DNA of 64,000 nt. Origin: Christiangramia forsetii KT0803. GTDB taxonomy: Bacteria; Bacteroidota; Bacteroidia; Flavobacteriales; Flavobacteriaceae. The position numbers and the translations under genes are program-made. Numbering within the stretch: position 1 is the first letter of the stretch; every line of letters begins with the position of its first letter. Where the stretch lies: the NCBI RefSeq assembly GCF_000060345.1, contig NC_008571.1, forward strand, positions 1,736,001 to 1,800,000, given 5' to 3'. The notes beneath the pieces were generated by a model. It was not told the origin of the DNA. It saw only the letters and a program-made list of their open reading frames with translations, and did no database searches. Below, in pieces: positions 35,768 to 56,851 of the stretch.

Positions 35768-36790
35768 TTATCTATTTACTTTAGCAGAACCATCACTGGC
35801 CATACACTCTAAAACTTCTTCTTTGGTTACCCGGTTCACATCACCAAAAATGCTATGTTTTAAAGCACAGGCGGATGTTGCGAAATCAATCGTTTTTTTC
35901 ATATCCCCTCCAAACTCCAGTAGTCCATAAAGAAATCCGCCCATAAAGGCATCTCCGGTTCCTACACGGTCAACAACGGGTTGTACTTCGTAGTTTTTAG
36001 CCCGATATAATATATCATCTTTGAATAAAAAACCTCCAATTCGCTGATGGGAAGCATTTACCGAATCCCGAAAAGTCATACCTATGGTGTTTAGCTTAGG
36101 AAGAAGATCTGTTAATTCTGAAAAATGCGTTTTAATTTCTTCATCATTAGAATAATTAGGAGCAACCTTATCTTTTCCCAACATAAACATGGCCGTATCG
36201 ATATCTCCCAGGATTACATTGCTGTATTGTAACATTTCCGGCATTACCTCATGGGGCGCTTTGCCGTATTGCCATAATTTGCTGCGATAATTCAGGTCTG
36301 TGGAAATACCAAGTCCCATCTTGTCGGCCATTTTAATTGCTTCCAGACACACTTCAGCAGTGGCCTGAGAAAGGGCAGGCGTTACCCCACTCCAATGAAA
36401 CCAGTTCGCTCCTTCTAATATCTGTTCCCAGTTAAAAACACCTTTTTCTATTTGTGATATCGCGGAGCCACGCCGATCATAAACTACTTTGCTTGGGCGT
36501 ATGGAATTTCCTGTTTCAATAAAATAAATTCCCAAACGTTCTCCCTGACGTATAATATGTTTACTCCCAACCTGAAATTCATGGGTCGCGCTCAAAGCAC
36601 AATCCCCGATCGCAATATCAGGCAGGGCTGTTACAAATTCAGTATCTATTCCATAATTTGATAGAGAGGCGGCAACATTAAACTCTCCCCCACCATAAAT
36701 AACCTCGAAATTTTTCGCCTGACTAAACTTACGATTATCTGGAGGCGACAAACGCATTAGAATTTCACCAAATGTGATTACTTTATGCAT
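35768..36790 (-). CDS. kdgK: 2-keto-3-deoxygluconate (KDG) kinase, PfkB family
   Basis: A 340-residue sugar kinase that phosphorylates KDG to KDPG. It begins MHKVITFGEILMRLSPP, the usual KdgK start, followed by YGGGEFNVAASLSNYG; the PfkB signature with the catalytic Asp is DRVGTGDAFMGGFLYGLL near the C-terminus. WSGVTPALS and STDLNYRSKLW are KdgK-like. The frame extends to 36850 into the end of the dehydrogenase gene, but the ATG at 36790 fits the family and leaves an 11-bp gap. It works between altronate dehydratase and the aldolase. Confidence 0.93.
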   Translation of the reverse strand: MHKVITFGEILMRLSPPDNRKFSQAKNFEVIYGGGEFNVAASLSNYGIDTEFVTALPDIAIGDCALSATHEFQVGSKHIIRQGERLGIYFIETGNSIRPSKVVYDRRGSAISQIEKGVFNWEQILEGANWFHWSGVTPALSQATAEVCLEAIKMADKMGLGISTDLNYRSKLWQYGKAPHEVMPEMLQYSNVILGDIDTAMFMLGKDKVAPNYSNDEEIKTHFSELTDLLPKLNTIGMTFRDSVNASHQRIGGFLFKDDILYRAKNYEVQPVVDRVGTGDAFMGGFLYGLLEFGGDMKKTIDFATSACALKHSIFGDVNRVTKEEVLECMASDGSAKVNR

Positions 36791-36801
36791 ATAATAAATC
36801 T

Positions 36802-39894: not shown

Positions 39895-42800
39895 ATGAAT
39901 GAAAAATTCAAAGCTTTAATAAGGAGTTTCTTTTTACTCGTCCAATTACTATTATTTATGAGTTTTCAGGATGGGAATGCTCAAAAGGAAATAACAGGCC
40001 AGGTTATAGATGACAATAATATTCCTATGCCCGGTGTAACTGTCCTTATAGAAGGTACAAATCAGGGAACTGCTACCGACTTTGATGGGTTTTACTCTTT
40101 AGAGGCCTCTCCATCAGATGTTTTGGTGTTTTCATTTATAGGATATGATGCCCAAAAAGTTACGGTAGGCGAAAAAACAACGATTGATTTAGTTCTACAG
40201 GCAAATGCTGAAGCTATGGACGAAATTGTTGTAATTGGTTATGGTACAGCCAAAAGAAGTGATTTAACAGGTTCTATTTCCTCTGTAAAAGCTGAAGAAC
40301 TGGATAAGATAAAACCTGTTTCATTTGAGGGAGGACTTGCTTCAAGAGCAGCCGGAGTTCAGGTGACCCAATCTGAAGGAGGACCTGGAGCTGGTTTCCA
40401 GGTAAGGGTTAGAGGAGGTTCCTCTATTAATGCCAGTAATGATCCATTATATGTAATTGACGGATTTGCCATACCGGGAAGTCCGGTAAGCACATCTACC
40501 GGGATAGGAAACAGTACCACAAGTCCGCTTTCTACAATAGATCCAAGTACTATTGAATCCATTGAAATACTAAAAGATGCTTCTGCAACTGCAATTTACG
40601 GTTCCAGAGGGGCTAATGGTGTTGTTTTAATTACAACCAAAGGTGGAAAAAAAGGACGAACAGATCTAAACTTTGAAGCCTATACCAGTGTTTCAAACAT
40701 TGTTAGACCTATAGACCTTTTATCTGCGCAAGAATTTGTAGACTGGAGATATGAGTATACTCCATTCGATCCTAACAATCCTACCGGTCAATTTGTAGGA
40801 GCCTACAGGGATCAGTTTGGAAACCCGATAGATCTTAATAATCCTGATGTTATACTAACAGACTGGCAGGATGAAATTGCCAGGACTGCAATAACAAGTA
40901 ATTACAAATTATCCTTATCTGGAGGAAGCGAAAATACTTCGTATGCGGGCTCCTTCTCTTATCTAGATCAAGAGGGTGTTATCAAAACTTCCAATTTTGA
41001 ACGTTATGCAGCCAGTATTAAAGTAGATCAAAAAATATCTGACAAATGGAAAGCCGGTCTGAATGTAAATATTGGTTATAACAAAAGAAGTGGAGTTGTT
41101 TCGGCAGCTACTGAAAATGCAAACGGAAGATCGGGAATCGTTACCAATGCTGTTCTATTTTCACCGGTTCAGGGTCTAACCCGTTATGATGATGCAGAAT
41201 ATGATGATGATGGTAGATTACTATCATTAAGAGGGGGTGACATTGTAAATCCTAACAGGATTCTTGAAGGAAACCTGAATGAAGGAGATAACTTCCAAAG
41301 CTTTGGAAATATATTCGTTCAATACAATTTTACAGATGCCCTTAGTTTCAAATCTTCTATTAGAGGAAACTTCTATACCAATAAAGGACAGGCTTACTAC
41401 TCTGAAAAATTTGGTTGGGGACAGTCTGCCAATGGTAGAGCTTTTACTAATGAATCCAGGGGTGCTGGCTTTATCACTGAACAAAACCTTAGTTTTAATA
41501 AAACTTTTGACGATCATAGAATAAATGCCACAGCAGTCTATGAGCAACAGCAAAATTTCAATGAGTTTTTAGTAGCCAGATCTACCGGTTTCAATTTACC
41601 CGGAGTAAATCTTGATAATTTAGGGACAGCTACGGTAACATTACCTACAAACTCAGGATATAATGATAATTCATTAAAATCATATTTGGGTAGGGTTCAA
41701 TATGATTTTAAGAATAGATACACCTTAAATTTAAGTGCTCGTTACGATGGATCATCAAGGTTTGCAGAAGATAAAAAATGGGGTTTCTTCCCTTCAGCGG
41801 GGGTCGCGTGGAAGGTTTCTAATGAAAAATTCCTGGAAAACAGTAAGACCTTTAATAATTTAAAATTAAGCGCCAGTTATGGAGAAACGGGAAATACGCA
41901 AATTGGATCTTATAGATCTATTGCAGCCGGAACTCTTGCCAACTATATCTTTGCCGGTGATCAATTAGCAACCGGAGTCGCGATAGACAGATTAGGAAAC
42001 CCAGATCTTACCTGGGAAACCACCACACAATATGATATTGGGCTGTCACTGGGTCTTTTCAAGAACCGAATTACTCTTGATGCAGATTATTATAATAAAA
42101 GCACTACAGATTTATTATTAGAAGTGCCTCTTCCTACAACATCGGGCTTTGAGTTTTCCTTTTCCAATTTAGGAGAGGTTGAAAATAAAGGTTTAGAATT
42201 TGCTCTAAATACTATAAACATAGAAAAGGACAATTTCACCTGGAACTCAAGCTTTAATATTAGTTTCAACAAAAATGAAATAAAAAATCTGGGGGGAGCG
42301 AATGAGTTTTTCGTTACTGCTATTGGTGATAACCAGATACAGAATGATTATATTGTAAGAGTAGGTGAATCGCTTGGATCGATTTATGGAATTGAAGAGC
42401 AGGGAGTTTATAATTATGGAGACTTTGCCGCTTTTGATGGTCTAACAGATACGCAAGCAGCCGAACAAATCCGTCAGGATGCCGCAACACAGGGAATTCC
42501 TTACTATGATTTGGTTTATACATTAAAAGACGGAGTAGTAACTTCTGCTGGACAACCAGATAATACCCAGTATCGTCCCGGAATACCAAAATTTGTAGAT
42601 CAAAACGGTGATGGTATTGTAAATTCAGATGACAGAACTATTATTGGAAATACGCTTCCAGAATTTTTCGGAGGTTTCAATAATAATTTCACTTACAAAA
42701 ACTTTGACCTATCTGTTTTAACATCTTTTTCCTATGGAAATGATGTTTACAACAAAAATATAAAACAAGGAACTTCACAGGATATTCCATTTTTTAATAA

Positions 42801-43161
42801 ATATGGGCAGGTAAGAGACCGCTGGACCCCTGAAAACCCAAATACTAATGTACCAGGAATTTGGGGATACGGAGATGCCGGTATTTCTGGTAATACTTAT
42901 TCCAGCTACGTTGAGGATGGTTCTTACATCAGATTGAGTAATATAACTTTTGGATATAATCTTCCTAATGACACTGCAAATAAGATGGGGCTAAAATCAT
43001 TTAGAGTATATGGAGCGGTAGACAATCTTTATATCTGGACAGATTATTCAGGATATGATCCTGATGTTAGCGTTGGAAACAACCAATTAACACCAGGTTT
43101 GGATGTTGACTCTTATCCGAGAGCAAGAACTTTCAGAATAGGAATGAATATAGGTTTGTAA
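39895..43161 (+). CDS. SusC-like TonB-dependent outer membrane transporter
   Basis: A 1088-residue outer membrane protein that imports oligosaccharides with its SusD lid. Signal peptide to about residue 29, then a CarboxypepD_reg-like domain (about 31-118; EITGQVIDDNNIPMPGVTV), the short TonB-interacting stretch MDEIVVIGYGTAKRSDLTGS, the plug (LASRAAGVQVTQSEGGPGAGF, DPLYVIDGF, SIEILKDASATAIYGSRGANGV) and a 22-strand barrel ending RTFRIGMNIGL. The SusD gene follows after 29 bp. First gene of the plus-strand operon. Confidence 0.97.
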   Translation: MNEKFKALIRSFFLLVQLLLFMSFQDGNAQKEITGQVIDDNNIPMPGVTVLIEGTNQGTATDFDGFYSLEASPSDVLVFSFIGYDAQKVTVGEKTTIDLVLQANAEAMDEIVVIGYGTAKRSDLTGSISSVKAEELDKIKPVSFEGGLASRAAGVQVTQSEGGPGAGFQVRVRGGSSINASNDPLYVIDGFAIPGSPVSTSTGIGNSTTSPLSTIDPSTIESIEILKDASATAIYGSRGANGVVLITTKGGKKGRTDLNFEAYTSVSNIVRPIDLLSAQEFVDWRYEYTPFDPNNPTGQFVGAYRDQFGNPIDLNNPDVILTDWQDEIARTAITSNYKLSLSGGSENTSYAGSFSYLDQEGVIKTSNFERYAASIKVDQKISDKWKAGLNVNIGYNKRSGVVSAATENANGRSGIVTNAVLFSPVQGLTRYDDAEYDDDGRLLSLRGGDIVNPNRILEGNLNEGDNFQSFGNIFVQYNFTDALSFKSSIRGNFYTNKGQAYYSEKFGWGQSANGRAFTNESRGAGFITEQNLSFNKTFDDHRINATAVYEQQQNFNEFLVARSTGFNLPGVNLDNLGTATVTLPTNSGYNDNSLKSYLGRVQYDFKNRYTLNLSARYDGSSRFAEDKKWGFFPSAGVAWKVSNEKFLENSKTFNNLKLSASYGETGNTQIGSYRSIAAGTLANYIFAGDQLATGVAIDRLGNPDLTWETTTQYDIGLSLGLFKNRITLDADYYNKSTTDLLLEVPLPTTSGFEFSFSNLGEVENKGLEFALNTINIEKDNFTWNSSFNISFNKNEIKNLGGANEFFVTAIGDNQIQNDYIVRVGESLGSIYGIEEQGVYNYGDFAAFDGLTDTQAAEQIRQDAATQGIPYYDLVYTLKDGVVTSAGQPDNTQYRPGIPKFVDQNGDGIVNSDDRTIIGNTLPEFFGGFNNNFTYKNFDLSVLTSFSYGNDVYNKNIKQGTSQDIPFFNKYGQVRDRWTPENPNTNVPGIWGYGDAGISGNTYSSYVEDGSYIRLSNITFGYNLPNDTANKMGLKSFRVYGAVDNLYIWTDYSGYDPDVSVGNNQLTPGLDVDSYPRARTFRIGMNIGL

Positions 43162-43190: not shown

Positions 43191-44729
43191 ATGGAAACAG
43201 TAAAATTTAAAGGAGTCTGGATGATCCTGATAGGGATTATCTCCTTGACCTCCTGTAGTGATGATTACTTAGATGAAAATCCAAAAACTTTTGTTAGTCC
43301 AGATGCATTACTAACAGATGAAGAAGGAGCTGAAATCTATTTAGTGGGAGCATATGATGCCGTTCAGGATATTATAGTAACCGATGATGCCGACGGTTGG
43401 TTAAACCACTGGGGGACATTGGCAGCAGATGAAGTAGTGGTTCCTGGCTGGGGAGGTGATAGAAAATTGATATTTCTTCATCAGCTCACTCCTTCTAACG
43501 CTACAGTTAGAAGAATGTGGGAGAGCATGTATATTTCATTAAACCGTATTAATAGTGTGGTAGACAGAGTGGGTGCTATGACTCCAGATCAAATTGAAGA
43601 TGAGCCAAAACAAAGAATTTTAGCCGAAGCAAGATATTTAAGGGCTATGATCAATTTTGCACTGGTATCAACCTGGGAAAACGTTCCGCTCATAGAACAT
43701 GAAACTACCAGCCTAAATAATTTAGAAGTACCACAGGCTACACCTGAAGAAGTATATGCTTTTATTATTGAAGATCTCCAGGCCGCTAAAACTACTCTTC
43801 CTATGGAACAGGGAGGAGGAAGAGCTACTAAAGGTGCAGCTCAGGCACTTCTGGGGAAAGTTTACCTGCAAATGACCGGCTTCCCTTTAAATCAGGATGA
43901 TAAGTTTGCCCTTGCAGAAGCTGAACTTAAAGAAGTGATTGACAGCGGTGTTTATGGCCTGGTAGATTCTTATCCAGATCTTTTTGACTATACCAATGAG
44001 CAAAACAAAGAAATCCTCTTTTCAATAGGAAAAGAAGGACCTGGTAAAAATGAAGGATCTTACCTGGGTGCTTTTTACGGACCTAACGGAAATGTAAATG
44101 AAGGTGGAGGATTTGGAACCGTATATGCAAATCATGAATGGGAAGCATCTTACGACCGTGATGACATCCGTTTATTAAACAATGTAGCAAAACACAATGC
44201 TAATAACTGGACACCAGAAGAAGGAATGTTCAACCCGGAATCCTGGGGTACCAATAAAGTACCATGGAGAGCCTGGAAATGGCATGCAGAAAAGCCAAAT
44301 AACTATGTAAACGATGCTCCTTTTGACAACCCATATATTCGTTTTGCGGATGTTTTACTAATGTATGCGGAAGCATTGAACGGCCAGGGAGAGTTAAGTC
44401 AAGCTGTGATTGATATGACTGTGAACAGTCTGAGGGAAAGAGTTAGATTAGAACCTACTGCAGTTCCAGATATGGCTTTAGGAAGTCAGTCTGAAAATGC
44501 TGCCGAGATTCTCGCAGAAAGACGTAGAGAGCTTGCCTTAGAAGGGTGGAGACGTAATGATTTGATCCGTTTTGGGGTATATGAAGAAACGATAAATGCT
44601 ATCAACCAGGAAGGTTTCAGTACAGCTGGAAATCCTGGTCCAAATTATAATGAATTTGAAATAAGGTGGCCAATTCCTAATTCAGAAATCGAGTTAAACC
44701 CAAGTCTGGAACAGAACCCAGGATATTAA
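43191..44729 (+). CDS. SusD-like surface glycan-binding lipoprotein
   Basis: A 512-residue lipoprotein (lipobox LTSC, then DDYLDENPKT) with the TPR-rich SusD/RagB fold. The N-terminal ENP motif, RILAEARYLRAMINFALV, RATKGAAQALLGKVYL and the C-terminal ILAERRRELALEGWRRNDLIRFG are all diagnostic. It covers the SusC pore and binds the incoming glycan at the cell surface. The pair defines this locus as a PUL. It is followed by a PKD-domain protein in the position of a SusE/F-like surface glycan-binding protein. Confidence 0.97.
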   Translation: METVKFKGVWMILIGIISLTSCSDDYLDENPKTFVSPDALLTDEEGAEIYLVGAYDAVQDIIVTDDADGWLNHWGTLAADEVVVPGWGGDRKLIFLHQLTPSNATVRRMWESMYISLNRINSVVDRVGAMTPDQIEDEPKQRILAEARYLRAMINFALVSTWENVPLIEHETTSLNNLEVPQATPEEVYAFIIEDLQAAKTTLPMEQGGGRATKGAAQALLGKVYLQMTGFPLNQDDKFALAEAELKEVIDSGVYGLVDSYPDLFDYTNEQNKEILFSIGKEGPGKNEGSYLGAFYGPNGNVNEGGGFGTVYANHEWEASYDRDDIRLLNNVAKHNANNWTPEEGMFNPESWGTNKVPWRAWKWHAEKPNNYVNDAPFDNPYIRFADVLLMYAEALNGQGELSQAVIDMTVNSLRERVRLEPTAVPDMALGSQSENAAEILAERRRELALEGWRRNDLIRFGVYEETINAINQEGFSTAGNPGPNYNEFEIRWPIPNSEIELNPSLEQNPGY

Positions 44730-44747
44730 TAATCTTTATTGATAATT

Positions 44748-46214
44748 ATGAAACAATTTTTAAATAGAAAATTCTTCAACTTAGGACTGGTTGTATTGGT
44801 AATGGTTATCGCTTTTATAAGCTGTACTCCAGATTCCAATTTAAGGGACGGAATTAGAGAAGTGACTTTTAGAGCAACAGCCAATACTGCATTAATAACG
44901 GAAGGAGAATCCATAACTTATATAGATTCTTCTTTAAATGTTGCCTCACGCACCTGGACATTTAACGGTGCCGATATTACCACATCAGATCAGAAGGAAG
45001 TTGAAGTAATGTATTCTGAACCTTCCTTTGATACGGTAAATCCGGCTGAGCAATCTACAGGTTTCTTTACTACGCTGGAAGTGGAACATGACGATGGAAC
45101 TACTGAAAGTAATACTTTTAGAGTAATAGTCTATCCTGAAGTGGAAGCGGCTTTTACAGCCGATAAAACCTCAGCGCTGTTTGGAAGTACGGTTCAATTT
45201 ACCAATCTCACAAAAAACAGAAGATCTGAATTTGAACTTGAACGTGAAGAAGATAGTTACCTCTGGGAATTTGAAGGCGGAACTCCAGCAACGAGTACTG
45301 CAGAAAACCCGGTAGTTACGTATCCGGAACCAGGCGTTTATAATGTAAAATTAACCGCACATCGTGCAGCTCCTGAACATGATGATATAGAAGTGAAAAC
45401 CGACTATATCACCATTCTGGCAGCTATACCTATAGAACCTAAGTTTTCAGCAAATATTACCACAATTGAGGCTGGCGAAGCAATCACCTTTACGGATTCA
45501 AGTAGCGGAGATGGTGATTCGTGGAAATGGACATTCCCTGGTGGAACTCCGGAAACCTCTACAGAACAAAATCCAACAGTAGTTTATAACGAGGCAGGTG
45601 TTTACGATGTAACCTTAGAAGTAAACAGGTCTCAGGATGGTGAAAGCGAAAGCATTACCAAAGCTGAATTTATTACCGTAACTGAAGCTACCGGGCCATA
45701 CTGTAATGATGAATCTAATCTGGTAGGCTGTGGCAATAATGATGGGGAAGAACAAAGCCTTTCAGACTGGGTAATCACCGGAGATGGTGGTGAAGATAGA
45801 AACGCTAATTTTTCGGTATCTACTGAACGTTTCTCAGAAGGTAGTGGTAGTCTGAAATATTCGTACAGCGAACCTGGAGCTCCAGCTTTTACTGATAACT
45901 TTTTAAGGTATAAGGAAGTATTGGTAAAAGTAGATGAAGCCGGTAACTATACATTATCTATGGATGTGTTTGGAGATATTTCTTCATCAGGAACCGAGTT
46001 TGTTTTTGAAATTTCCTTAGTAAATGCAGCTACAGATGTTGAAGCCAATAAGCAATTTTTCAGAAAAGCAGGAGGTTCCTGGTTTACGGCAACTACCTCT
46101 GTTGATCTTGCTCCGGGAGACTATTATGTGATGTTTAAAATGTGGAATCCGGGATTCCATGCAGATCTGGACATAGATGTTTATTTAGATAATATCACCG
46201 TGGTAAGGAATTAA
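44748..46214 (+). CDS. PKD-domain lipoprotein, probable surface glycan-binding protein
   Basis: A 488-residue lipoprotein (lipobox near FISC). After an Ig/PKD-like N-terminal region it has two clear PKD domains (YLWEFEGGTPATSTAENPVV, WKWTFPGGTPETSTEQNPTV, each with the trailing VYNVKLTA/VYDVTLEV strand), then a C-terminal jelly-roll module of about 170 residues ending YLDNITVV, like carbohydrate-binding modules. No catalytic motif is seen. Position directly after susD suggests a SusE/F-like role in holding the polysaccharide at the surface. The frame allows a TTG start at 44739; I use the ATG at 44748. Confidence 0.85.
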   Translation: MKQFLNRKFFNLGLVVLVMVIAFISCTPDSNLRDGIREVTFRATANTALITEGESITYIDSSLNVASRTWTFNGADITTSDQKEVEVMYSEPSFDTVNPAEQSTGFFTTLEVEHDDGTTESNTFRVIVYPEVEAAFTADKTSALFGSTVQFTNLTKNRRSEFELEREEDSYLWEFEGGTPATSTAENPVVTYPEPGVYNVKLTAHRAAPEHDDIEVKTDYITILAAIPIEPKFSANITTIEAGEAITFTDSSSGDGDSWKWTFPGGTPETSTEQNPTVVYNEAGVYDVTLEVNRSQDGESESITKAEFITVTEATGPYCNDESNLVGCGNNDGEEQSLSDWVITGDGGEDRNANFSVSTERFSEGSGSLKYSYSEPGAPAFTDNFLRYKEVLVKVDEAGNYTLSMDVFGDISSSGTEFVFEISLVNAATDVEANKQFFRKAGGSWFTATTSVDLAPGDYYVMFKMWNPGFHADLDIDVYLDNITVVRN

Positions 46215-46272: not shown

Positions 46273-46317
46273 ATCTCATGTAGAATGTAGAACATGTGAA
46301 GTTTAAAAATATTGACT

Positions 46318-47634
46318 ATGAAAATGAGAATTAAAATTTTATTCCTGAGCTTTATTATCCTGCCGATTTTAGGCTGTTCAAAGAGCGATGATAGTACAGA
46401 ACAGGAACCCGAACAAGAAGTGGTTGATCCACAGGAACCTGACATTACCGAAGGATATATGCTAGCAAATTTTTCCATTGACGGGGAAATGGGCCATCCT
46501 CCTACTGAAGAAAACTGGGAAGTAGAAGAAATATTAACCGATGAATTTAACGGGGCTTCCTTAGATGAAGAAAAATGGAATGGTTTGCACCCTGTTTGGT
46601 CCGGACGCGTTCCCAGCAATTTTGTAAGGGAGAATACCACCCAGGCAGATGGCAATTTGAGGTTGAAATCTACCTCTATGGTAGACGACCTTTCTGAAGT
46701 GAATGATCCAGAGAATGATGTATGGGTCGCTGCGGCCAGCATGACTTCCAAAGCGAAATCAGCGAAACCGGGCTATTACTATGAAGCATCTATAAAAGCT
46801 TCAGACTTATCCATGACCTCTTCTTTCTGGTTTCGTATTGGTGAATATTCAGAAATAGATGTGATCGAACATCTCGGGCATTCCAGTAAAGAGAATCTGG
46901 CTGAAAGGCTGTCTTACGAATATGCAGCGAACACCCACGTTTATGGCCCGGAACAGGGTCCCGAACCAATTGGAGCGACTTATGAAATGGGTACCCGTGG
47001 CCGTGAAGAATTTCATGTGTATGGTTTCTGGTGGAAAGATGCCACTACCCTCCTATTCTATCTGAATGGAGAACAGGTGATGGAAATCACTCCAGCAGTT
47101 CCTTTTGAAGAAGACTTGTATCTAATTTTTGATACTGAAGTTTTCACATGGGCTGGCTTACCAAAAATTGAAAATTTAAAAGACGATAGTAAAAACACCA
47201 TGCTGGTAGATTTTGTAAGAACGTACAAACCTGCAACTTCAGATTTTGATGGTGGCCTAGTGAAGAATGGAAGTTTTAATCAGTCTGAACTTGCTAACTG
47301 GTACTGGAAAGGCACAATTGCCCTTGAAACCAATACCCTGATTAATGACGGAGAAGTATTTAGCCTGCAATTAGCCCCAACGGGAGCAGTTTTACAGGAA
47401 GTTCAGGTAGAAAAAAATACAGCATACACCTTAAATTATAAGGTGAAAAATCCGGGAGGCTCTGCTAAAATTGGAATTTTCGATATCGAGGAAGAAACTA
47501 TAAGCTCCAATGATTCCTGGAGCAGTAAGAACCTCACTTTTAATTCCGGTGATAATACTAAAATCTTTATTACTGCTGAGAATACCGGAAACTTCAGTGT
47601 GTATGTAGATGGTTTTAAACTGGCCAAACAATAA
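46318..47634 (+). CDS. GH16 lipoprotein, predicted agarase/porphyranase (copy 1)
   Basis: A 438-residue endo-hydrolase with lipobox LPILGC. The GH16 domain (about residues 55-305) has DEFNGASLDEEKWNGLHPVW and the active-site motif EIDVIE with Glu179, Asp181 and Glu184, which is the beta-bulge form used by agarases, porphyranases and kappa-carrageenases. [24 protein letters not shown] resembles the agarase group. A C-terminal jelly-roll domain (GSFNQSELANWYWKG...) is probably a binding module. It is a paralogue of the next gene. The TTG at 46312 is a less likely start. Cleavage preference (agarose or porphyran) cannot be told from sequence by eye. Confidence 0.88.
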   Translation: MKMRIKILFLSFIILPILGCSKSDDSTEQEPEQEVVDPQEPDITEGYMLANFSIDGEMGHPPTEENWEVEEILTDEFNGASLDEEKWNGLHPVWSGRVPSNFVRENTTQADGNLRLKSTSMVDDLSEVNDPENDVWVAAASMTSKAKSAKPGYYYEASIKASDLSMTSSFWFRIGEYSEIDVIEHLGHSSKENLAERLSYEYAANTHVYGPEQGPEPIGATYEMGTRGREEFHVYGFWWKDATTLLFYLNGEQVMEITPAVPFEEDLYLIFDTEVFTWAGLPKIENLKDDSKNTMLVDFVRTYKPATSDFDGGLVKNGSFNQSELANWYWKGTIALETNTLINDGEVFSLQLAPTGAVLQEVQVEKNTAYTLNYKVKNPGGSAKIGIFDIEEETISSNDSWSSKNLTFNSGDNTKIFITAENTGNFSVYVDGFKLAKQ

Positions 47635-47878: not shown

Positions 47879-49207
47879 ATGAAATTATTTTTAATATTAC
47901 TTCTTAGTGTAGTTTTCAGCTCCTGCTCAGGTGATAGCAATACTGAACCACAGGAACCACCGGTTACTACACCTCCAGTTACTCAAATTGATCCTACGGA
48001 AGGTTATTCTTCAGGAAATCAAATACTTGAAAATAGTGATTCCCGGTTACCTGAAGAACAAGAATGGGCCATAGTCTCTGAATTAACCGATGAATTTGAG
48101 GGCGAAAGCCTGGATGAAACCAAATGGGATGATTACCATCCACATTGGGCAGGAAGGGCTCCAAGTAAATTCAAAAAAGGAAATGCATTTGTAGAAAATG
48201 GCAGGCTTAATTTAAGGTCTACCCTGCTTAAAGATCCTTCTGAAGTTGAAGATCCTGATACCGATATCTGGGTAAATTCAGCCGCGATGGTTTCTAAAGA
48301 CTGGAGCGCGAAACCCGGTTACTATTACGAAGCTTCAATGAAAGCATCTTCCCTTTCCATGACCTCATCGTTCTGGTTCAGGGTGGGAGAATATTCTGAA
48401 ATAGATGTTATAGAACATATTGGGAATGCTTCCAATCCTGTTTCAGAAACAAGGGATAAAAACCTGGGCTATCAATACCATACGAATGCTTTTCATTACT
48501 TCGGTTCAGAAGTAATTGATGTGGTTAGAAATGAATGGACCATGCCTACATTGGGGAGAGAAGAGTTTCACGTTTACGGACTATGGTGGAAAGACGCCAA
48601 TACCCTTCATTTCTATCATAATGGGAAATTGGTGATGACCACTACCCCGCCCACCTCATTTGAAGAAAACTTGAAAATGATCTTTGATACAGAGGTGTTT
48701 TCATTTTATACCGCTTCCTGGGGTCTGCCGGGATTACCGTTAGTAGAAAACCTGAATGACGATTCAAAAAATACCGCTTATATAGATTTTGTAAGGACTT
48801 ATAAAAAAAGTGAAGTCTCTTATAATTCCGGATTGCTGACCAATGGTTCATTTGAATCTAATGGATTGAATGGCTGGCTTTGGAAAGGCGATGTAAAAAT
48901 CAATAACAATACCCTAAATCTAAATGAAGGCGTGATATACCTGGAATTAAAGGATCAAGGCAGTGTTATACAGGAAATTGATGTGGAAAAAAATACTGAG
49001 TATAGATTAAGCTGGAGTTCCAAAATTGAAAATGAAGAATTACAGGTGGAAGTTTATGATATTAAAAATGCGGCAAACAATAATACATCATGGCAGGAAG
49101 ATGAATTTAGCTTTAATACCGGCGATACCGACAAAGTCTATATTTCATTTACTGCCGCTACAGGAGCAACTGCCTTTATAGATGCTATCAAACTAGAGAA
49201 ACTATAA
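47879..49207 (+). CDS. GH16 lipoprotein, predicted agarase/porphyranase (copy 2)
   Basis: A 442-residue paralogue of the preceding enzyme. Lipobox SSC, a Pro/Thr-rich linker, then the GH16 domain with [44 protein letters not shown] and catalytic motif EIDVIE (Glu174, Asp176, Glu179). [20 protein letters not shown] and the C-terminal jelly-roll ([15 protein letters not shown]) mirror copy 1. It differs by an insertion around [16 protein letters not shown] and around [12 protein letters not shown], both likely near the substrate cleft, so the two enzymes may cut different parts of a hybrid galactan. Confidence 0.88.
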
Positions 49208-49235: not shown

Positions 49236-50105
49236 ATGAGAGATCTCGCAGAATACCATCATCCGCTAACAGATATTTTTCCGCAGCCAAAAACGGCAAA
49301 AGAGTGGGAGAAATATAAGCTTACTGAAGAACAGGTTGCTTATTACCACGAGTATGGGCACTTATCGGGGATAAAACTGCTGGACGACCGGCAAATTGAT
49401 CTACTAAACAAACAACTAGAAGAAATCCAGGATCCCGAACACCCCGAACACGATCTTTTTTATGAATTTCATTCCAATGAATCTGAAGATCCCAATTCGG
49501 TACTTTTCCATTCCCTGGGACATTGGCGTATAACCAAAGGTTTTCATGATGTATTGTGGAACCCGGCTTTTGTTATGGCTGCCAGTCAGTTATTGGGAAA
49601 TAAAGCTGTCAGGTTCTGGCATGACCAGTTATTCTGCAAACCGGCAAAACATGGAGGCGTGGTAGCCTGGCACCAGGATTATTCTTACTGGACCCGCACT
49701 ACCGCTATGCAGCATTTAACCTGTTGGACGGGACTTGATGACGCCACTACTGAAAATGGTTGTCTTCATTATATACCAAAAAGCCATAAATGGGGCTTGC
49801 TCGACAAACCAGAACTGGCGGGTGATATGGATAAAATAATGAATTACCTCACCGAAGAACAAAAACATGAATTTAAGCCGGTTCCTATAGAATTAAAAAA
49901 AGGCCATGCTTCTTTTCATCATCCATTAATGGTACACGGTTCCTATGAGAATAAATCAGATATAAGCCGCCGTGCATTTGTTCTTAATGTTTTTGCAGAT
50001 GGAACAATCAGTAATACGAATGAAGAATTATTGAAAGGTGTTCCGGTAATCGAAAAAGGTGAGAAAATGCAAGGTAAATTTTTTCCCATGCTATTTGAAA
50101 AATAA
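49236..50105 (+). CDS. PhyH-family Fe(II)/2-oxoglutarate dioxygenase, candidate sugar O-demethylase
   Basis: A 289-residue cytoplasmic oxygenase with no signal peptide. The double-stranded beta-helix iron triad is visible as His146 and Asp148 in AWHQDYSYW and His234 in MVHGSYENKS, followed by Arg245/246, the usual 2-oxoglutarate anchor. NGCLHYIPKSHKWG is the PhyH signature. The family hydroxylates C-H groups next to a variety of functions. Its genes downstream, a class III-like zinc dehydrogenase and an S-formylglutathione-hydrolase-like esterase, are the pair expected after formaldehyde release. I infer that it may demethylate 6-O-methyl-D-galactose. Hydroxylation of another sugar position or oxidative removal of sulfate are alternatives. 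Confidence 0.8.
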   Translation: MRDLAEYHHPLTDIFPQPKTAKEWEKYKLTEEQVAYYHEYGHLSGIKLLDDRQIDLLNKQLEEIQDPEHPEHDLFYEFHSNESEDPNSVLFHSLGHWRITKGFHDVLWNPAFVMAASQLLGNKAVRFWHDQLFCKPAKHGGVVAWHQDYSYWTRTTAMQHLTCWTGLDDATTENGCLHYIPKSHKWGLLDKPELAGDMDKIMNYLTEEQKHEFKPVPIELKKGHASFHHPLMVHGSYENKSDISRRAFVLNVFADGTISNTNEELLKGVPVIEKGEKMQGKFFPMLFEK

Positions 50106-50238
50106 ATTCCATTAGAAAATTGTATTTCCTTTTTCATAGGATGCAGATAAAAACAAGATGCTAATAATATATTTTTCAGATAAGAAAATCAAGAGCCTCT
50201 GGTCATAAAACCCTTCTATAAAGCTTAAAAAATAAAAC

Positions 50239-51354
50239 ATGCCGATTATTTCAAAAAGCGCGGTTGCCAAAGGCGACGGTACTTTTATAATAGATAACAT
50301 ACACCTTGCAGATCCTGAAGCAGACGAGGTTTTGGTAAAAATTAAAGCTGCCGGACTTTGCCATACCGATTATGATTCCCTTTCCTGGGGCAAACCTTTA
50401 GTGATGGGTCATGAAGGCGCCGGAATTGTGGAAAAGGTGGGGAACGCGATAAAAGACCTGAAAAAAGGTGACCAGGTTATTTTAAACTGGGCTACTCCGT
50501 GTATGACATGTTTTCAATGTCAGGATGGAAACCAGCATATTTGTGAGAATAATTCACCCGTGGTAGCCGGCAGTAACGGTCATACTCCGGGTCACGCCCA
50601 TCTGGAAGGCTCTAAATGGAATGGAAAAGCTATAGAACGATCCTTCAATATTGGTACGTTGAGTGAATATGCCCTGGTAAAAAAATCAGCCGTCGTAAAG
50701 GTGGAGGAAGAAAAACTGAATTTTTCTGCTGCGAGTATCATAAGCTGCGGTGTAATGACAGGTTACGGTTCAGTGGTAAATTCAGCAAAATTAATAGCAG
50801 GTAGTTCAGCTGTAGTATTGGGCTGTGGCGGGGTAGGTTTAAGTGTTATAAATGCCTGTAAGATTTCAGGTGCAAGTAGGATTATTGCCGTGGACATCAA
50901 TCCTAAAAAACTGGAACTGGCCAAAAAATTTGGCGCTACAAAAATCGTTTTAGCCGAAAAGACTGATAAAGGATTAAATAAAATAGCTGAACAAATTAAA
51001 ACAATATTTGATGGCCGTGGCGCAGATTATGCTTTTGAATGCACTGCTATTCCAGAATTGGGTGTTGCACCTTTGGCAATGATCCGCAACGCGGGTACCG
51101 CAGTTCAGGTTAGTGGTATAGAACAGGAGATAAATGTAGATATGCGATTGTTTGAGTGGGATAAGGTTTATATAAACCCGTTGTACGGAAAATGTCGCCC
51201 ACAGATAGATTTTCCTAAGTTGATGCACCTTTTTAAAAAAGGGGATCTGAAACTAAGGGAAATGATTACGAAAGAATACAAGCTCGAAGATCTGCCAAAA
51301 GCTTTTGATGATATGCTTGCTGGCAATAATGCCAAGGGAGTGGTGGTGTTCTAA
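50239..51354 (+). CDS. Zinc alcohol dehydrogenase, class III-like (candidate formaldehyde dehydrogenase)
   Basis: A 371-residue medium-chain dehydrogenase. Catalytic zinc ligands Cys41, His58 and Cys170; structural zinc ligands Cys88, Cys91, Cys94 and Cys102; nucleotide motif GCGGVG at about 195-200. The stretch SCGVMTGYGSVVNSAKL and its length put it with class III and related aryl/alcohol dehydrogenases rather than with the LgoD-like enzyme of the other operon. Class III enzymes oxidise S-hydroxymethyl-glutathione, formed from formaldehyde. The thiol used by this organism is not known, and direct oxidation of another aldehyde or alcohol is possible. It is followed after 24 bp by the esterase gene. 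Confidence 0.82.
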   Translation: MPIISKSAVAKGDGTFIIDNIHLADPEADEVLVKIKAAGLCHTDYDSLSWGKPLVMGHEGAGIVEKVGNAIKDLKKGDQVILNWATPCMTCFQCQDGNQHICENNSPVVAGSNGHTPGHAHLEGSKWNGKAIERSFNIGTLSEYALVKKSAVVKVEEEKLNFSAASIISCGVMTGYGSVVNSAKLIAGSSAVVLGCGGVGLSVINACKISGASRIIAVDINPKKLELAKKFGATKIVLAEKTDKGLNKIAEQIKTIFDGRGADYAFECTAIPELGVAPLAMIRNAGTAVQVSGIEQEINVDMRLFEWDKVYINPLYGKCRPQIDFPKLMHLFKKGDLKLREMITKEYKLEDLPKAFDDMLAGNNAKGVVVF

Positions 51355-51378
51355 TAATTAAGTGAATAAATCGATAAA

Positions 51379-52182
51379 ATGAGCAGTTTAAGAACTATTG
51401 AACTTTCAGACAAAAACTTTGAGACTGATGGGCTGCGCTTTCTAACAGTTAAAACTAAAAACCTGAAAGGGCGGGGCGATATTTGCCTTTTTGTTCCCGA
51501 AGTTGCTGAAAATGTAACTAACCTGCCCATCTATATCCTGTTGCATGGTGTTTATGGGAGTGCCTGGGTATGGGCTTTAAAAGGCGGTGCCCACCATACC
51601 GCTAAGCAATTAATGGACAATGGCAGTATTGATCCAGCCATTATTGCCATGCCTTCAGATGGACTTTGGGGAGATGGTTCGTCCTATTTATCTCACCAGG
51701 AAAAAGACTTTGCTCAATGGATTGTTTCGGATGTGCCAAAGGCTATTATCGAAAATATCCCATCTGCAGGGGAGAAATCTAAACTCTGCATTGGCGGGCT
51801 CTCCATGGGTGGCTACGGTGCATTGATGTTAGGAGCTAAATATCCTCAAAAATTTAAGGCAATTTCAGCACATAGTGCTATTACAACATTTAAAGGAATG
51901 GCGGCTTTTGTAGAAGAGAACCTGAACCTATATAATTTGAAGGATGTGGAAAAGAATGTCATAGACGTCATTTTAGAACATCAAGATCAATTGCCCAACC
52001 TTCGATTTGATTGTGGAAGAAATGATGATTTATTGAAAGCTAACCGAAAATTGCATCGGCAACTACTTGAACTTGGCGTAAAACACAGCTTTGAAGAGTT
52101 TGAAGGCGGACATGAATGGTCCTACTGGCAAAAGCATTTGGAACTTAGTCTCCGGTTCTTTGATGAACAAATTGGAGTTTAG
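51379..52182 (+). CDS. Esterase D / S-formylglutathione-hydrolase-like alpha/beta hydrolase
   Basis: A 267-residue alpha/beta hydrolase without signal peptide. The nucleophile Ser142 lies in IGGLSMGGYGAL, the acid is Asp216 or Asp217 in CGRNDDLL, and His245 lies in FEGGHEWSYW. The layout is that of the esterase family (Pfam Esterase), which includes S-formylglutathione hydrolase, as well as acyl and sugar esterases. Cytoplasmic location and its place directly after a class III-like dehydrogenase favour a thiol-formyl hydrolase in formaldehyde clearance. An intracellular acetyl esterase is the main alternative. Confidence 0.82.
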   Translation: MSSLRTIELSDKNFETDGLRFLTVKTKNLKGRGDICLFVPEVAENVTNLPIYILLHGVYGSAWVWALKGGAHHTAKQLMDNGSIDPAIIAMPSDGLWGDGSSYLSHQEKDFAQWIVSDVPKAIIENIPSAGEKSKLCIGGLSMGGYGALMLGAKYPQKFKAISAHSAITTFKGMAAFVEENLNLYNLKDVEKNVIDVILEHQDQLPNLRFDCGRNDDLLKANRKLHRQLLELGVKHSFEEFEGGHEWSYWQKHLELSLRFFDEQIGV

Positions 52183-52230
52183 AAAGAAATGATCATGTTT
52201 TTAGCAATCTGTAAAAAAAGCATTTATAAA

Positions 52231-54816
52231 ATGAACAATAAAAAACTAAAAAATATTGCAATATCTAAATTGTATGCTTTTATTCTTATACTCTCCTTTT
52301 TGGGTAATAGCTCTTATTCCCAGGAGCATAGAAAAATGGTTGCTGAAAGAGAAATAGATTTCAATCAGGATTGGCAATTTTCCTTACGCGAAATTTCAGA
52401 TAGCAGCCGTACTCACCACGAAGCAAATTGGAAAAAGCTACAGCTGCCCCATGACTGGAGTGTGGAAGCCTCTTTCGACTCTATAAACGGCGAGGGCGCG
52501 ACCGGATATCTTCCCGGCGGCATCGGCTGGTATAAAAAGGAATTTAAAACTAAGGTTACCAAAGATGAAAAAACCTATCTATATTTTGATGGGGTCTATA
52601 ACAATGCTGAAATTTGGCTAAATGGGAATAAGTTGGGCTTCCATCCCTATGGCTACTCCCCTTTTTATTTCGATATCACCGCCTATCTTAAAAAAGACAG
52701 CATAAATAACCTTTTAATGCTTAAAGTTGATCGCACCCGATATGTTGATAGCAGGTGGTACACAGGTTCCGGAATTTACCGGGATGTAAAATTGATTACT
52801 ACCGATAAGCTGCATATACCAGTATGGGGGACTTTTTTTACAACTTCAAAAATTTCAGAAAAAGAAGCAACTATTAATGCCGAAATTAGCCTTATAAATG
52901 ACCATTCTGAAAATATGGATTTTCAATTGATCACAGAAATATATAATCCGCAGGATAAAATAGTAGCCAGTATTTCTGAAAATATAAGTTTAAAAGGTAA
53001 TTCTGAAAAACCTATCGTTCAGGAATTGAAAGTTGACGACCCACTTCTATGGGATATAAATACTCCCAATATGTACACCGCTATAACCACCATAAAAAGT
53101 AACGACAAAAATATAGATCACTATAAAACCTCATTTGGGATCAGGTCATTTAGGTTTGACAAAGACAATGGCTTTTTTCTAAATGGAAAAAGCATGAAGA
53201 TAAAAGGTGTCAATTTACATCATGATGCTGGGCTTGTAGGAGCCGCCGTCCCTAGAGGTGTGTGGAAAAGACGCTTGTTAAAGTTAAAGGAAGCAGGGGT
53301 AAATGCCATACGCACTGCCCACAATCCGGCTTCAGAAGACTTCCTAGATCTTTGCGATGAAATGGGCTTTTTGATCCAGGAAGAATTTTTTGATGAATGG
53401 GGTTTTTCAAAAGATAAAAGATTAAACCAACAGGAAAGACATTCAGATTATATATCCAGAGGCTATACGGAACATTTTCAGAAGTGGGCTGAAAAAGATC
53501 TCAAAAATACCATGCTACGAGATAGAAACCATCCTTCTATTATCCAGTGGAGCATAGGGAACGAGATTGAATGGACCTATCCCCGCTACTCCCATTCCAG
53601 TGGCTTTTTCAACATGGACTGGCAAGGAAATTATTTTTGGGAACAGCCCCCAATTTCCCCTGAAGAAATTAAAAAACTATATAATGAAAGCCCGGAAAAT
53701 GAATATGTCCTGGCCGAAACAGCAAAAAAATTATCCAATTGGACAAAGGAAATGGATACTACCCGACCAGTAACTGCCAATTTAATCCTGCCTTCGGTAA
53801 GTCATGTTTCGGGATATACCGATGCACTGGATGTAGTAGGATATAGCTACCGTAGGGTTATGTATGATTATGGCCATAAAAACTATCCAGATAAACCTAT
53901 AATGGGAACAGAGAATTTAGTGCAGTGGCATGAATGGAAGGCTGTAATGGAACGACCTTTTATAGCAGGAACTTTTTTATGGACGGGAATTGATTATATG
54001 GGGGAATCTAACGCTCAATGGCCAAGAAAAGGGACTACCAGCGGGATGCTTGATTTTGCTGGGTTTAAAAAACCCTCTTACCATATGATAAAAACTTTAT
54101 GGAATGATGAGCCCCATATTTATATCGCAACCCAAAAGGCTGAAAAATCGATTTTCAGGTATGATAAGAATAAAGGGGATGTAGTAGAAAAAGAACCCGG
54201 CGCATGGAAACAGGCTTTGTGGACCTGGCATGACGTAAACGAGCACTGGAATTATTCAGCAAATGATACCGTTATCGTAGAAATATATTCTAACCTGGAG
54301 GAAGTAGAATTGTTTCTAAATGATAAATCACTCGGCAGTAAAAAACTGGATCAATTTGATGATAGGATCTATAAATGGGTTGTTCCTTTTACTGATGGCA
54401 CCTTGATCGCGAAAGGAACAAAAAACGGCAAAATTGTAAGTATTCAACGTACAACTGCCGGCCCGCCCGTAGCAATCGAGCTTAGCACGAAAAACAACAG
54501 CATAGCCGCAAATTCGCGTGACGTGGCCCATATTGTAGCCCAATTGATAGATGATTCGGGCAATCCGGTCAAAACCCAGGAAAAGAAAATTGAATTTACT
54601 ATTGAAGGTGAAGCAAAAATTCTTGGAGTAGATAACGGTGCCGGGGATAATGTACAGGATTATCAATCAAACTCCATAATTACAGATCAGGGAAGAGCAC
54701 TTTTAATTATTCAAGGTACCAACCAGCCTTCAACCATTAAGGTAAATGTCAAAGCTCCTGGCCTGAAGAAAGAGACCACTTCAATTAAAATATCATCAAC
54801 CCATAATCAAAAATAA
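52231..54816 (+). CDS. GH2 beta-galactosidase-type enzyme (secreted)
   Basis: An 861-residue glycoside hydrolase with a signal peptide ending near SSYSQ. The sugar-binding domain ([25 protein letters not shown]), Ig-like domain, and barrel are followed by C-terminal Ig-like/BIG-type domains. The acid/base is Glu445 in SIGNEIEW and the nucleophile Glu561 in MGTENLVQW. It probably removes beta-D-galactose residues. A frame-start ATG at 52189 exists, but the ATG at 52231 (MNNKKLKN) gives a cleaner signal peptide. It follows the esterase gene closely and precedes GH117 by 2 bp, so all three are co-transcribed. Confidence 0.9.
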
Positions 54817-54818: not shown

Positions 54819-56042
54819 ATGATCAAAAAAACTAAAGCTTTAATTGTTATAGGTCTTATGGCTACTTTATATAGTTGTAATAATACTTCGGAGAAAATTT
54901 CCGCGGAAAAGACAGAAGATAAGCCGGAAATTTCTCAGGTAGATATTGATCGGCTGGGAATTACCAATCCAGATTCCCTTAGCGCCGCTTCAGTAAGGGC
55001 ATTAGACTGGCCGGATGTGGGTAATGAATGGTTTATTGAATTCAGTGAACTGCAACCCCTGAAAGGCGATCTTGCTTACGAAGAAGGTGTGGTAAGGCGT
55101 GATCCCAGTGCTTTATTAAAGCATGATGGGAAATATTATGTATGGTATACTAAAAGTGTTGGACCTACGCAGGGATTTGGGGGAGATATTGAAAATGACA
55201 AGGTTTTCCCATGGGATCGCTGTGATATCTGGTATGCGACTTCAGAAGATGGTTGGACCTGGGAAGAACAGGGTATAGCCGTTGCTCGTGGTGAAAAAGG
55301 GGAATATGACGACCGTTCTGTGTTTACCGTAGAAATTATGGAAGACAAAGGCAAATATTATTTATCCTATCAGACTATTCAATCTCCTTACAATGTAAGA
55401 ACCAAAAACCAGGTGGGACTTGCCTGGGCAGATTCTCCCAATGGCCCCTGGACCAAAAGTAAAGACCCTATCTTAAGTCCAGCTGATAACGGTATTTGGA
55501 AAGGGGAAGAACAAAACAGGTTTGCAGTTGAAAAAAAAGGTGATTTTGACAGTCATAAAGTACACGATCCCTGCATTATTCCCTACAATGGCAAATATTA
55601 TTTGTACTACAAAGGAGAACAAATGGGGGAAGAAATCACTTTTGGGGGTAGACAGATACGTCACGGAGTAGCCATAGCTGATAATCCCAAAGGGCCTTAT
55701 GTGAAATCTGCTTACAACCCAATTAGCAACAGTGGCCATGAAATTTGTGTTTGGAAACATAATGGGGGCATTGCCTCGCTGATCACCACCGACGGACCTG
55801 AAAAAAACACGATCCAATGGGCTCCAGATGGCGTTAACTTTGGTATAAAATCAGTTATTAAGGGTGCGCCGCATGCTATTGGTCTTAACCGCGAACTTAA
55901 TACTGATGAATCTGAGGAGCCAGGGGCAATTTTAGGGTGGGGATTATCACATATTTATAACAATAGTGACTACCAAAGCATCATGCGATTTTCCTCCAAA
56001 AGAAGAACTTCCCATGTAGCAAAAGGGGAAAAAGCTGAATAA
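54819..56042 (+). CDS. GH117 alpha-1,3-(3,6-anhydro)-L-galactosidase lipoprotein
   Basis: A 407-residue five-bladed propeller enzyme with lipobox TLYSC. It is recognisable as GH117 from SAASVRALDWPDVGNEWFIEF, GVVRRDPSALLKHDGKYYV, WDRCDIWYATSEDGWTW, KVHDPCIIPYNGKYYLYYKG and SGHEICVWKHNGG, all typical of the neoagaro-oligosaccharide hydrolases such as Zobellia AhgA. These release 3,6-anhydro-L-galactose from the non-reducing end of agar oligosaccharides in the periplasm. It starts 2 bp after the GH2 stop. It is the clearest sign that the substrate is agar-type and not carrageenan. Confidence 0.93.
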   Translation: MIKKTKALIVIGLMATLYSCNNTSEKISAEKTEDKPEISQVDIDRLGITNPDSLSAASVRALDWPDVGNEWFIEFSELQPLKGDLAYEEGVVRRDPSALLKHDGKYYVWYTKSVGPTQGFGGDIENDKVFPWDRCDIWYATSEDGWTWEEQGIAVARGEKGEYDDRSVFTVEIMEDKGKYYLSYQTIQSPYNVRTKNQVGLAWADSPNGPWTKSKDPILSPADNGIWKGEEQNRFAVEKKGDFDSHKVHDPCIIPYNGKYYLYYKGEQMGEEITFGGRQIRHGVAIADNPKGPYVKSAYNPISNSGHEICVWKHNGGIASLITTDGPEKNTIQWAPDGVNFGIKSVIKGAPHAIGLNRELNTDESEEPGAILGWGLSHIYNNSDYQSIMRFSSKRRTSHVAKGEKAE

Positions 56043-56059: not shown

Positions 56060-56851
56060 ATGAAAAAAGTATCTGTATTATTCCTTCTTACCGTAATGCT
56101 CATTGCTTTATCATGTGGATCGAAAATCAAAAAAGACAGCAGCGAAAACTGGCAATCCCTTTTTAATGGGGAAAACCTTGACGATTGGATTGTAAAGATC
56201 CACCATCATGAAGTGGGCGATAATTATGCTAATACCTTCAGGGTGCAAAACGGGGTAATCCAGGTAAATTACGATGAGTATACCGGATTTAACGAGCGGT
56301 ATGGCCATCTGTTTTACAAAGAGCCATTTTCTTCCTATCATCTTAAATTTAAATATCGTTTTACAGATCAGTGGTTAAAAGATGCGCCAGATTACACCTA
56401 TCGCAATAGCGGCGTGATGTTCCATTCCCAGGCACCAGAGACTATTCTAAAAGAACAGGACTGGCCAATTTCCGTAGAATATCAAATGCTTGCCGATGCC
56501 GGCGATGGTGAACCGAGACCCACCGGAAATATGTGTTCTCCAGGTACCGAAGTGTATTACGATGGTGAAATGGATCCACGGCATTGTATTCGTTCATCCT
56601 CTAGAACTTATAGATGGGACGAATGGGTTAATGCGGAACTTATTGTTTATCGTGATTCCCTTATCATCCATAAAATCAATGGGAATAAAGTGTTGGAGTA
56701 TAGTAAACCCCAAATTGGCGGCGGAGTCGCCACGGGTTTTGACCCTACTCTAAAAGAAGATGGAAAGCCTCTTACCAGTGGGTATATAGCTTTACAGGCA
56801 GAAGGCCAGGGTGTAGAGTTTAAAGATATCAAAATCAAAAAACTGGATTGA
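56060..56851 (+). CDS. DUF1080 (3-keto-disaccharide hydrolase-like) lipoprotein
   Basis: A 263-residue lipoprotein (lipobox LIALSC) with the DUF1080 jelly-roll: SLFNGENLDDWIVK at the start, YRNSGVMFHSQAPE, PISVEYQMLAD, and the closing GYIALQAEGQGVEFKDIKIKKL. The family includes 3-keto-glycoside hydrolases, and it is common in PULs. Here no Gfo/Idh-type oxidoreductase that would make a 3-keto sugar lies in the window, so its role in this locus is not clear; a galactan-binding function is an alternative. It is 17 bp after the GH117 gene and is the last gene of the susC operon. Confidence 0.85.
   Translation: MKKVSVLFLLTVMLIALSCGSKIKKDSSENWQSLFNGENLDDWIVKIHHHEVGDNYANTFRVQNGVIQVNYDEYTGFNERYGHLFYKEPFSSYHLKFKYRFTDQWLKDAPDYTYRNSGVMFHSQAPETILKEQDWPISVEYQMLADAGDGEPRPTGNMCSPGTEVYYDGEMDPRHCIRSSSRTYRWDEWVNAELIVYRDSLIIHKINGNKVLEYSKPQIGGGVATGFDPTLKEDGKPLTSGYIALQAEGQGVEFKDIKIKKLD

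Follow-up and report, generated by a model that had tools for sequence, protein, structure and literature searches.

A PhyH-family dioxygenase gene beside ZoADH-like dehydrogenase and esterase genes: a candidate P450-free demethylation module in a porphyran utilization locus of Christiangramia forsetii KT0803

Methylated galactose can make up as much as 28% of porphyran (PMC10033563, from earlier work). In Zobellia galactanivorans and Formosa agariphila, the known cluster for 6-O-methyl-D-galactose (G6Me) consists of cytochrome P450 (CYP), ferredoxin, ferredoxin reductase, alcohol dehydrogenase (ADH), and esterase genes (PMC10033563; this source, PMC12316285, and PMC12709175 are cited here from partial texts). 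The P450 route is the sole route described for G6Me in the open-licence PMC literature examined. Among the matches listed from that literature (titles and the starts of abstracts), none linked a 2-oxoglutarate (2OG) dioxygenase, PhyH or other, to porphyran or to the demethylation of G6Me, and the word "dioxygenase" is absent from the main text of PMC10033563. In the porphyran polysaccharide utilization locus (PUL) of Bacteroides plebeius, BpGH29 acts as an exo-alpha-L-galactosidase, and the available text reports no demethylase gene for this gut PUL (PMC12316285). Here, we analyzed a 64,000-nucleotide stretch of the Christiangramia forsetii KT0803 genome (NC_008571.1, positions 1,736,001 to 1,800,000; the window), in which genes for a PhyH-family dioxygenase, a zinc-dependent ADH, and an esterase follow one another. 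Judged by sequence comparison, this run is probably a P450-free version of the oxidative demethylation module of porphyran PULs (probability about 0.58).

The three open reading frames (ORFs) lie between glycoside hydrolase (GH) genes as a first-pass annotation of the letters had placed them, with two GH16 genes on the 5' side and GH2, GH117, and PF06439 genes on the 3' side. The gaps from the second GH16 gene through PhyH, ADH, and esterase to GH2 were 28, 133, 24, and 6 bases. That annotation had also described the three proteins as free of signal peptides, which agreed with the lack of signal-like N-termini as judged by eye, no signal-peptide program having been used.

The window dioxygenase matched Pfam PhyH (PF05721) with 122.6 bits (cut-off 22) over profile positions 1–213 of 213, and it was the sole PhyH match in the 3.80-Mb single-contig genome. 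Residues His146, Asp148, His234, and Arg245 were invariant among 50 aligned PhyH homologs and in a second set of 41, so the iron triad proposed at first pass held. Arg245 is presumably the 2OG-binding residue. An AlphaFold2 model of the protein (pLDDT 84.7, pTM 0.87) matched PhyH-superfamily folds in Foldseek, among them the PHYHD1 structures 2opw and 3obz. By sequence, PHYHD1 scored 47.3 bits, which is below the matches to several other PhyH proteins. The substrate cannot be read from sequence by itself, because structurally known relatives catalyze very different reactions; MysH, SnoK, SnoN, GriE, proline hydroxylase, EctD, and EvdO2 were among the nearest solved ones. The top solved-structure match in both sequence and fold was RESC14 of the trypanosome RNA-editing complex, which carries a PhyH-family annotation. 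Members of the family found in bacteria, plants, a fungus, animals, and a virus strip the 2'-O-methyl group from free nucleosides with 2OG (PMC12709175, 2025), and thus sugar-ether O-demethylation is established in the PhyH family, though for ribose. Formaldehyde was demonstrated as a product for FJS, human PHYH was inactive, and the tested members are taken to show that demethylase activity is widespread in PF05721 (PMC12709175).

The window ADH matched Pfam ADH_N and ADH_zinc_N with 87 and 78 bits, and its best solved relatives were 8H2B (ZoADH, 713.6 bits) and 8H2A (FoADH, 621.3 bits). It was identical to ZoADH at 308 of 371 residues (83%) over the full length, which places it in the ZoADH/FoADH type of the G6Me system. 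The motifs CHTD from residue 41 and GHEG from residue 57, Cys170, and C88/C91/C94/C102 were present, which we take to hold the zinc ligands. The first-pass label of a class III-like zinc ADH was therefore sound as to the zinc motifs and loose as to the class, with a score of 217.9 bits against the class III equivalog TIGR02818 (cut-off 543.95). The label of S-formylglutathione hydrolase given to the esterase proved weak, at 39.4 bits against TIGR02821 (cut-off 281.7). The protein matched Pfam Esterase (73 bits), contained the motifs GLSMGGYG, FDCGRNDD, and GGHEW, and was nearest to ferulic-acid and other esterases.

A ZoADH knockout was impaired in growth on G6Me (PMC10033563). In the same source, FoADH and ZoADH were inactive on formaldehyde alone, on G6Me, and on galactose, as well as on formaldehyde with glutathione, mycothiol, bacillithiol, cysteine, CoA, ergothioneine, and others. 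Because of these knockout and assay results, the window ADH would tie the run to methyl-sugar use and not to a formaldehyde dehydrogenase function. For the homologs, the assays contradict the formaldehyde-clearing role given to ADH and esterase by the first-pass annotation, and we consider that role disfavored here.

A G6Me-type P450 (6G5O/6G5Q type) was not found in the window genome at E ≤ 1e-60, with the P450 of locus L073 (640 bits to 6G5O) as the query. The sole P450 of the genome was 22% identical to the G6Me type over 201 columns and lies slightly downstream of a ruvB-like ORF (label by eye). The best match of the genome to the G6Me-cluster ferredoxin reductase had 30% identity and 82.5 bits. 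The first-pass observation that P450 and reductase genes are missing from the window thus extends to the whole genome, including the case of a P450 demethylase encoded elsewhere, for which only the unrelated P450 turned up; ferredoxin, named in the same observation, was not searched for.

In the proposed mechanism, the cytoplasmic PhyH protein would bind Fe(II) through His146, Asp148, and His234 and 2OG through Arg245, and would hydroxylate the methyl-ether carbon of a porphyran-derived O-methyl galactose, with G6Me as the first candidate. The predicted products are succinate, CO2, and a hydroxymethyl ether, which would break down to galactose and a one-carbon unit. A single enzyme would thereby do the job of the P450, ferredoxin, and reductase of Z. 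galactanivorans and F. agariphila. The ADH and esterase would be auxiliaries common to both versions, with functions other than the handling of free formaldehyde or known thiol adducts, to judge by the tested homologs.

The distribution of the genes was investigated in a sample of 397 Flavobacteriaceae genomes taken from a larger group, with presence called at E ≤ 1e-100 for ADH, E ≤ 1e-40 for PhyH, and E ≤ 1e-60 for the G6Me-type P450. ADH was found in 41 genomes, PhyH in 41, and the P450 in 28, all 28 of which contained ADH. PhyH was present in each of the 13 genomes that had ADH and lacked the P450, compared to 7 of 28 with both ADH and P450 (Fisher p = 4.4e-6, which ignores kinship) and 21 of 356 without ADH. 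Eleven of these 13 PhyH proteins were at least 74% identical to the query, and two (G153, G374) were 55–57% identical. Within one genus (g214), G213 had the P450 and no PhyH, while G374 had PhyH and no P450. Nine genomes belonged to one genus taken to be Zobellia, and seven of them contained PhyH. In G399, which encodes an ADH letter-identical to ZoADH, no PhyH was found at E ≤ 1e-40; the published failure of a P450 knockout on G6Me was thus apparently observed in a strain lacking PhyH and is no argument against it.

Gene neighborhoods were built with a mechanical ORF caller and best-BLAST labels, and most neighboring genes lack a family-library scan. Among the 41 Flavobacteriaceae ADH loci, 24 had the P450 only, 9 had PhyH only, 3 had both, and 5 had neither nearby; four genomes of these five loci contained PhyH elsewhere and one contained the P450. 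Of the 20 genomes containing both genes, 12 had PhyH within six ORFs of ADH, and the ADH was accompanied by the esterase in 41/41 loci. One scan of GTDB genomes added 63 ADH loci (from 77, after leaving out five duplicate genomes and nine loci with no usable ADH ORF), of which 17 had a P450 nearby, 18 a PhyH-family gene, and none both. Six of the 18 were of the window family (L142, L147, L154, L155, L166, L201) and 12 were divergent, seven of these being near-copies from related metagenome-assembled genomes (MAGs). The order AraC-PhyH-ADH-esterase was seen in Saprospiraceae (L142, L147) and Flammeovirgaceae (L154), where the same slot elsewhere reads AraC-P450-ferredoxin-ferredoxin reductase-ADH-esterase. 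In Cyclobacteriaceae (L201), PhyH directly precedes a short ADH ORF, and in Chitinophagaceae (L166) it lies five ORFs from ADH with opposite-strand genes between. Two Cyclobacterium records and one Cyclobacteriaceae MAG (L137:10001–11116, L197:9908–11115, L201:10001–10795) had an ADH frame that appeared split or shortened. Taken as a hypothesis, the substitution of PhyH for the P450 is well supported.

Other genes were also seen in the oxygenase slot. A second, divergent PhyH-family gene precedes the same ADH in other Bacteroidota (L169:9170–9976, L170:7212–8006, L185:9192–10001, L186, L187, L189, L190, L192, and L193), with an AraC-like gene adjoining it in eight of the nine loci. The divergent proteins of L169 and L170 were ~21% identical to the window PhyH, and those of L169 and L185 were verified as Pfam PhyH matches. 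Three MAGs, one of Methylacidiphilales and two unplaced, encode a protein of 448–485 aa directly before ADH and esterase (L198:8527–9984, L199:5292–6638, L200:8444–9796), possibly another oxygenase type; that of L198 was weakly DUF455-like (19.9 bits, cut-off 34.3), and that of L199 matched nothing. Of 27 genomes that represent the 28 GTDB-scan loci with no oxygenase nearby, 23 contained some PhyH-superfamily gene and 6 contained this family (>400 bits), counts that have no matched base rate and are not evidence.

Several observations weigh against the substitution. The P450 and PhyH occur together in seven genomes (within a single locus in three), where PhyH is thus not a mere replacement. 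PhyH occurs without ADH in 21 genomes, and many of these PhyH genes lie beside L-fucose/L-galactose or unrelated genes; the neighborhoods of PhyH loci lacking a nearby ADH were of L-fucose/L-galactose, uronate, or unrelated character. In the GTDB scan, 28 of the 63 ADH loci had neither oxygenase nearby. Across seven independent pairs in the ADH tree that differ in the P450, PhyH changed in the opposite direction in three, in the same direction in none, and showed no difference in four (p = 0.25, not significant). The first-pass idea of a replaced P450 is favored by the ZoADH/FoADH-homologous ADH and the 13/13 genomes. A single clade of ADH-linked PhyH was rejected, with eight changes on the PhyH tree (two duplicates left out), and the substrate is thus unreadable from location; the ADH-linked proteins were still clustered, as the shuffled mean was 14.7 changes and 0/500 shuffles were as low. 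A Gly replacing PorA Ser129 or PorB Thr137 marks 6-O-methyl-porphyranases (PMC12316285). None of the three window GH16 proteins has this Gly of the 6-O-methyl-porphyranases (GH16_14), those at 46312 and 47879 carrying Ser and that at 57630 Thr, with the column located by its distance before the nucleophile and, in the case of 57630, by an apparent likeness to PorB. Lastly, a canonical hexulose-phosphate synthase was not found in the window genome at the 200-bit cut-off.

Co-occurrence with hexulose-phosphate synthase at >200 bits, taken as a sign of formaldehyde fixation, was unsupportive in general (9/160 genomes; 4/41 with PhyH; 5/28 with P450, two of these five also having PhyH). A gene scoring ~139–149 bits against this synthase (cut-off 200) was present in 19/41 PhyH genomes vs. 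0/119 PhyH-free genomes searched and is not in the window genome; it runs with a Zn-dehydrogenase, a short-chain dehydrogenase/reductase (SDR), and a TIM-barrel protein in L228, L230, L232, L234, and L237. In L105, L110, L113, L123, and L126, where ADH is not in the locus, PhyH is near a BNR-repeat protein (5/5) and a creatininase-family gene (4/5), both names being taken from L105.

A further point against the substitution favors a serious rival, in which PhyH would demethylate another sugar, such as O-methyl-L-galactose or O-methyl-L-fucose, beside the P450, P450-free genomes would not use G6Me, and ADH and esterase would serve either oxygenase. The rival is serious because PhyH loci are far richer in L-galactose/L-fucose catabolic genes than P450 loci: 9/12 ADH+PhyH loci contained them vs. 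1/24 ADH+P450 loci lacking PhyH, the window being scanned at full length and the others over ~20 kb or less (8/12 within ±10 kb). They were also found in 13/30 PhyH loci with no ADH nearby, several ADH-free PhyH loci have fucose/uronate genes, and the seven genomes with both oxygenases fit as well. However, L-galactonate dehydrogenase (LgoD) does not separate the P450 genomes (7/7 with PhyH, 18/21 without), and catalysis of one and the same step accounts better for the 13/13 complementarity and for the position swap next to AraC. We regard a different methylated sugar as unlikely but worth serious attention. As a genome-level predictor, LgoD was strongly associated with PhyH overall (33/41 PhyH genomes vs. 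50/356) but was rejected as uninformative among P450 genomes. It is rather doubtful that PhyH instead hydroxylates a non-methylated sugar, amino acid, or lipid and adjoins ADH and esterase only through PUL co-regulation. The diverse reactions of the family (the solved relatives above) and some unrelated gene contexts would allow it, whereas the repeated link, in four Bacteroidota families, to an ADH whose homolog knockout affects G6Me use, along with the activity called widespread among tested PF05721 members (PMC12709175), speaks against it. A role as a 2'-O-methyl nucleoside demethylase like FJS or PHYHD1 appears highly improbable: the Pfam family and fold are shared and several tested bacterial members are active (PMC12709175), but the PHYHD1 match is only 47 bits, PhyH genes are linked with PULs and sugar-acid pathways, and no nucleoside gene was noticed beside PhyH, although no search was aimed at one.

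The fate of the one-carbon unit separates two further views. The complete first-pass scheme, in which PhyH frees formaldehyde and its removal falls to the ADH and esterase in the manner of class III ADH and S-formylglutathione hydrolase, is very unlikely; the constant ADH-esterase pairing and the right fold families speak for it, but both window proteins fail the equivalog cut-offs and the tested ADH homologs are inactive on formaldehyde alone or with thiols (PMC10033563). In the other view, with less than even odds by a wide measure, the ADH and esterase may form the core of a general system of methyl-ether removal with an interchangeable oxygenase: P450-ferredoxin-ferredoxin reductase, the window PhyH family, the second divergent PhyH family, and perhaps others. 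By oxidation of the hydroxymethyl ether (a hemiacetal), the ADH would then make a formate ester for the esterase to cleave to sugar and formate, with free formaldehyde largely bypassed. The scheme would mirror that of class III ADH and S-formylglutathione hydrolase, with a sugar replacing the thiol, and the ADH would be inactive on formaldehyde because it acts one step earlier. Counting against such a core are the narrow active site published for the ADH, its preference for aromatic aldehydes, the lack of activity on the sugars tried, and the equimolar formaldehyde published in vitro, as well as the PhyH genomes lacking the ADH-esterase pair.

The surroundings of the run are listed in Table 1. 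SusC/SusD and porphyranase-type GH16 genes, as in a porphyran PUL, are present in the window; the two flanking GH16 proteins scored 312 and 301 bits against beta-porphyranase A, and the gene at 54819 is homologous to solved 3,6-anhydro-alpha-L-galactosidases. The minus-strand block at 28726–39394, besides GH29, appears to comprise L-galactose pathway genes and a transporter. Given the porphyranase-A-like GH16s, GH117, BpGH29-like GH29, and L-galactose pathway genes, porphyran/agar PUL is the most fitting name for the locus. The PF06439 gene closes the run inside the PUL. A promoter and terminator scan (promoter-like, 52 vs. 56.0 in shuffled sequence; terminator-like, 19 vs. 15.0) was not used.

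Table 1. Features of the porphyran/agar PUL and neighboring genes in the window.
Feature	Position	Strand	Remark
Sulfatase	23044..24783	+	
MFS transporter	28726..30072	-	
SDR, above the NCBIfam cut-off for L-fucose dehydrogenase	30083..30880	-	L-galactose is the presumed substrate
L-fucono-lactonase-like amidohydrolase	30892..31719	-	under NCBIfam cut-off
Mannitol-dehydrogenase family, probably tagaturonate reductase	31709..33208	-	
Galactarate/altronate dehydratase family	33391..35052	-	
KDPG/KHG aldolase	35073..35744	-	
pfkB kinase, probably KDG kinase	35768..36850	-	
Zn-dehydrogenase, probably L-galactonate 5-dehydrogenase	36802..37809	-	
GH29; nearest solved structures 7snk, 7ljj (BpGH29)	37829..39394	-	432 bits
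SusC-like TonB-dependent transporter	39895..43161	+	
SusD-like lipoprotein	43191..44729	+	
PKD-domain protein, probably surface glycan-binding	44739..46214	+	suggested by position after SusD
GH16; nearest solved structure beta-porphyranase A	46312..47634	+	
GH16; nearest solved structure beta-porphyranase A	47879..49207	+	
PhyH-family Fe(II)/2OG dioxygenase, putative demethylase of O-methyl sugars	49236..50105	+	289 aa
Zn-dependent ADH, close homolog of ZoADH and FoADH (G6Me P450 cluster)	50239..51354	+	371 aa
Alpha/beta-hydrolase esterase, regular ADH partner	51379..52182	+	267 aa
GH2, beta-galactosidase-like	52189..54816	+	
GH117 3,6-anhydro-alpha-L-galactosidase	54819..56042	+	710.6 bits to 3p2n
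PF06439 (3-keto-disaccharide hydrolase family) protein	56060..56851	+	

If the proposed substitution is correct, a ferredoxin-free, single-gene replacement would alter which bacteria are predicted to use methylated galactose, would explain P450-free PULs that retain the auxiliary genes, and would provide a simple soluble enzyme for the removal of sugar methyl ethers. The contrast between PhyH and P450 loci also reopens, by a clean comparison, the role of the ADH needed for growth on G6Me.

Compared to described systems, the window shares a relative of the GH29 exo-alpha-L-galactosidase and GH16 porphyranases with the B. plebeius porphyran PUL (BpGH29, BpGH16s), although its GH29 reaches only 432 bits against BpGH29. 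The window PhyH is like PHYHD1 and FJS in family and in the HxD...H triad, and its proposed chemistry is the 2OG-dependent removal of a methyl group from a sugar ether; it is unlike them in its low sequence similarity and in its expected substrate, a methylated hexose from the PUL. The window ADH, whose activity is predicted only, keeps the zinc motifs and Phe136 of FoADH and ZoADH (8H2A, 8H2B) and differs from them in having PhyH as its partner oxygenase. With the G6Me cluster of Z. galactanivorans and F. agariphila as a whole, the window run shares the porphyran PUL context, a closely homologous ADH, and an adjoining esterase, and several other PhyH loci contain a related, divergent AraC regulator, as that cluster does. 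Unlike the cluster, the run has no P450 or reductase gene and carries a PhyH dioxygenase gene.

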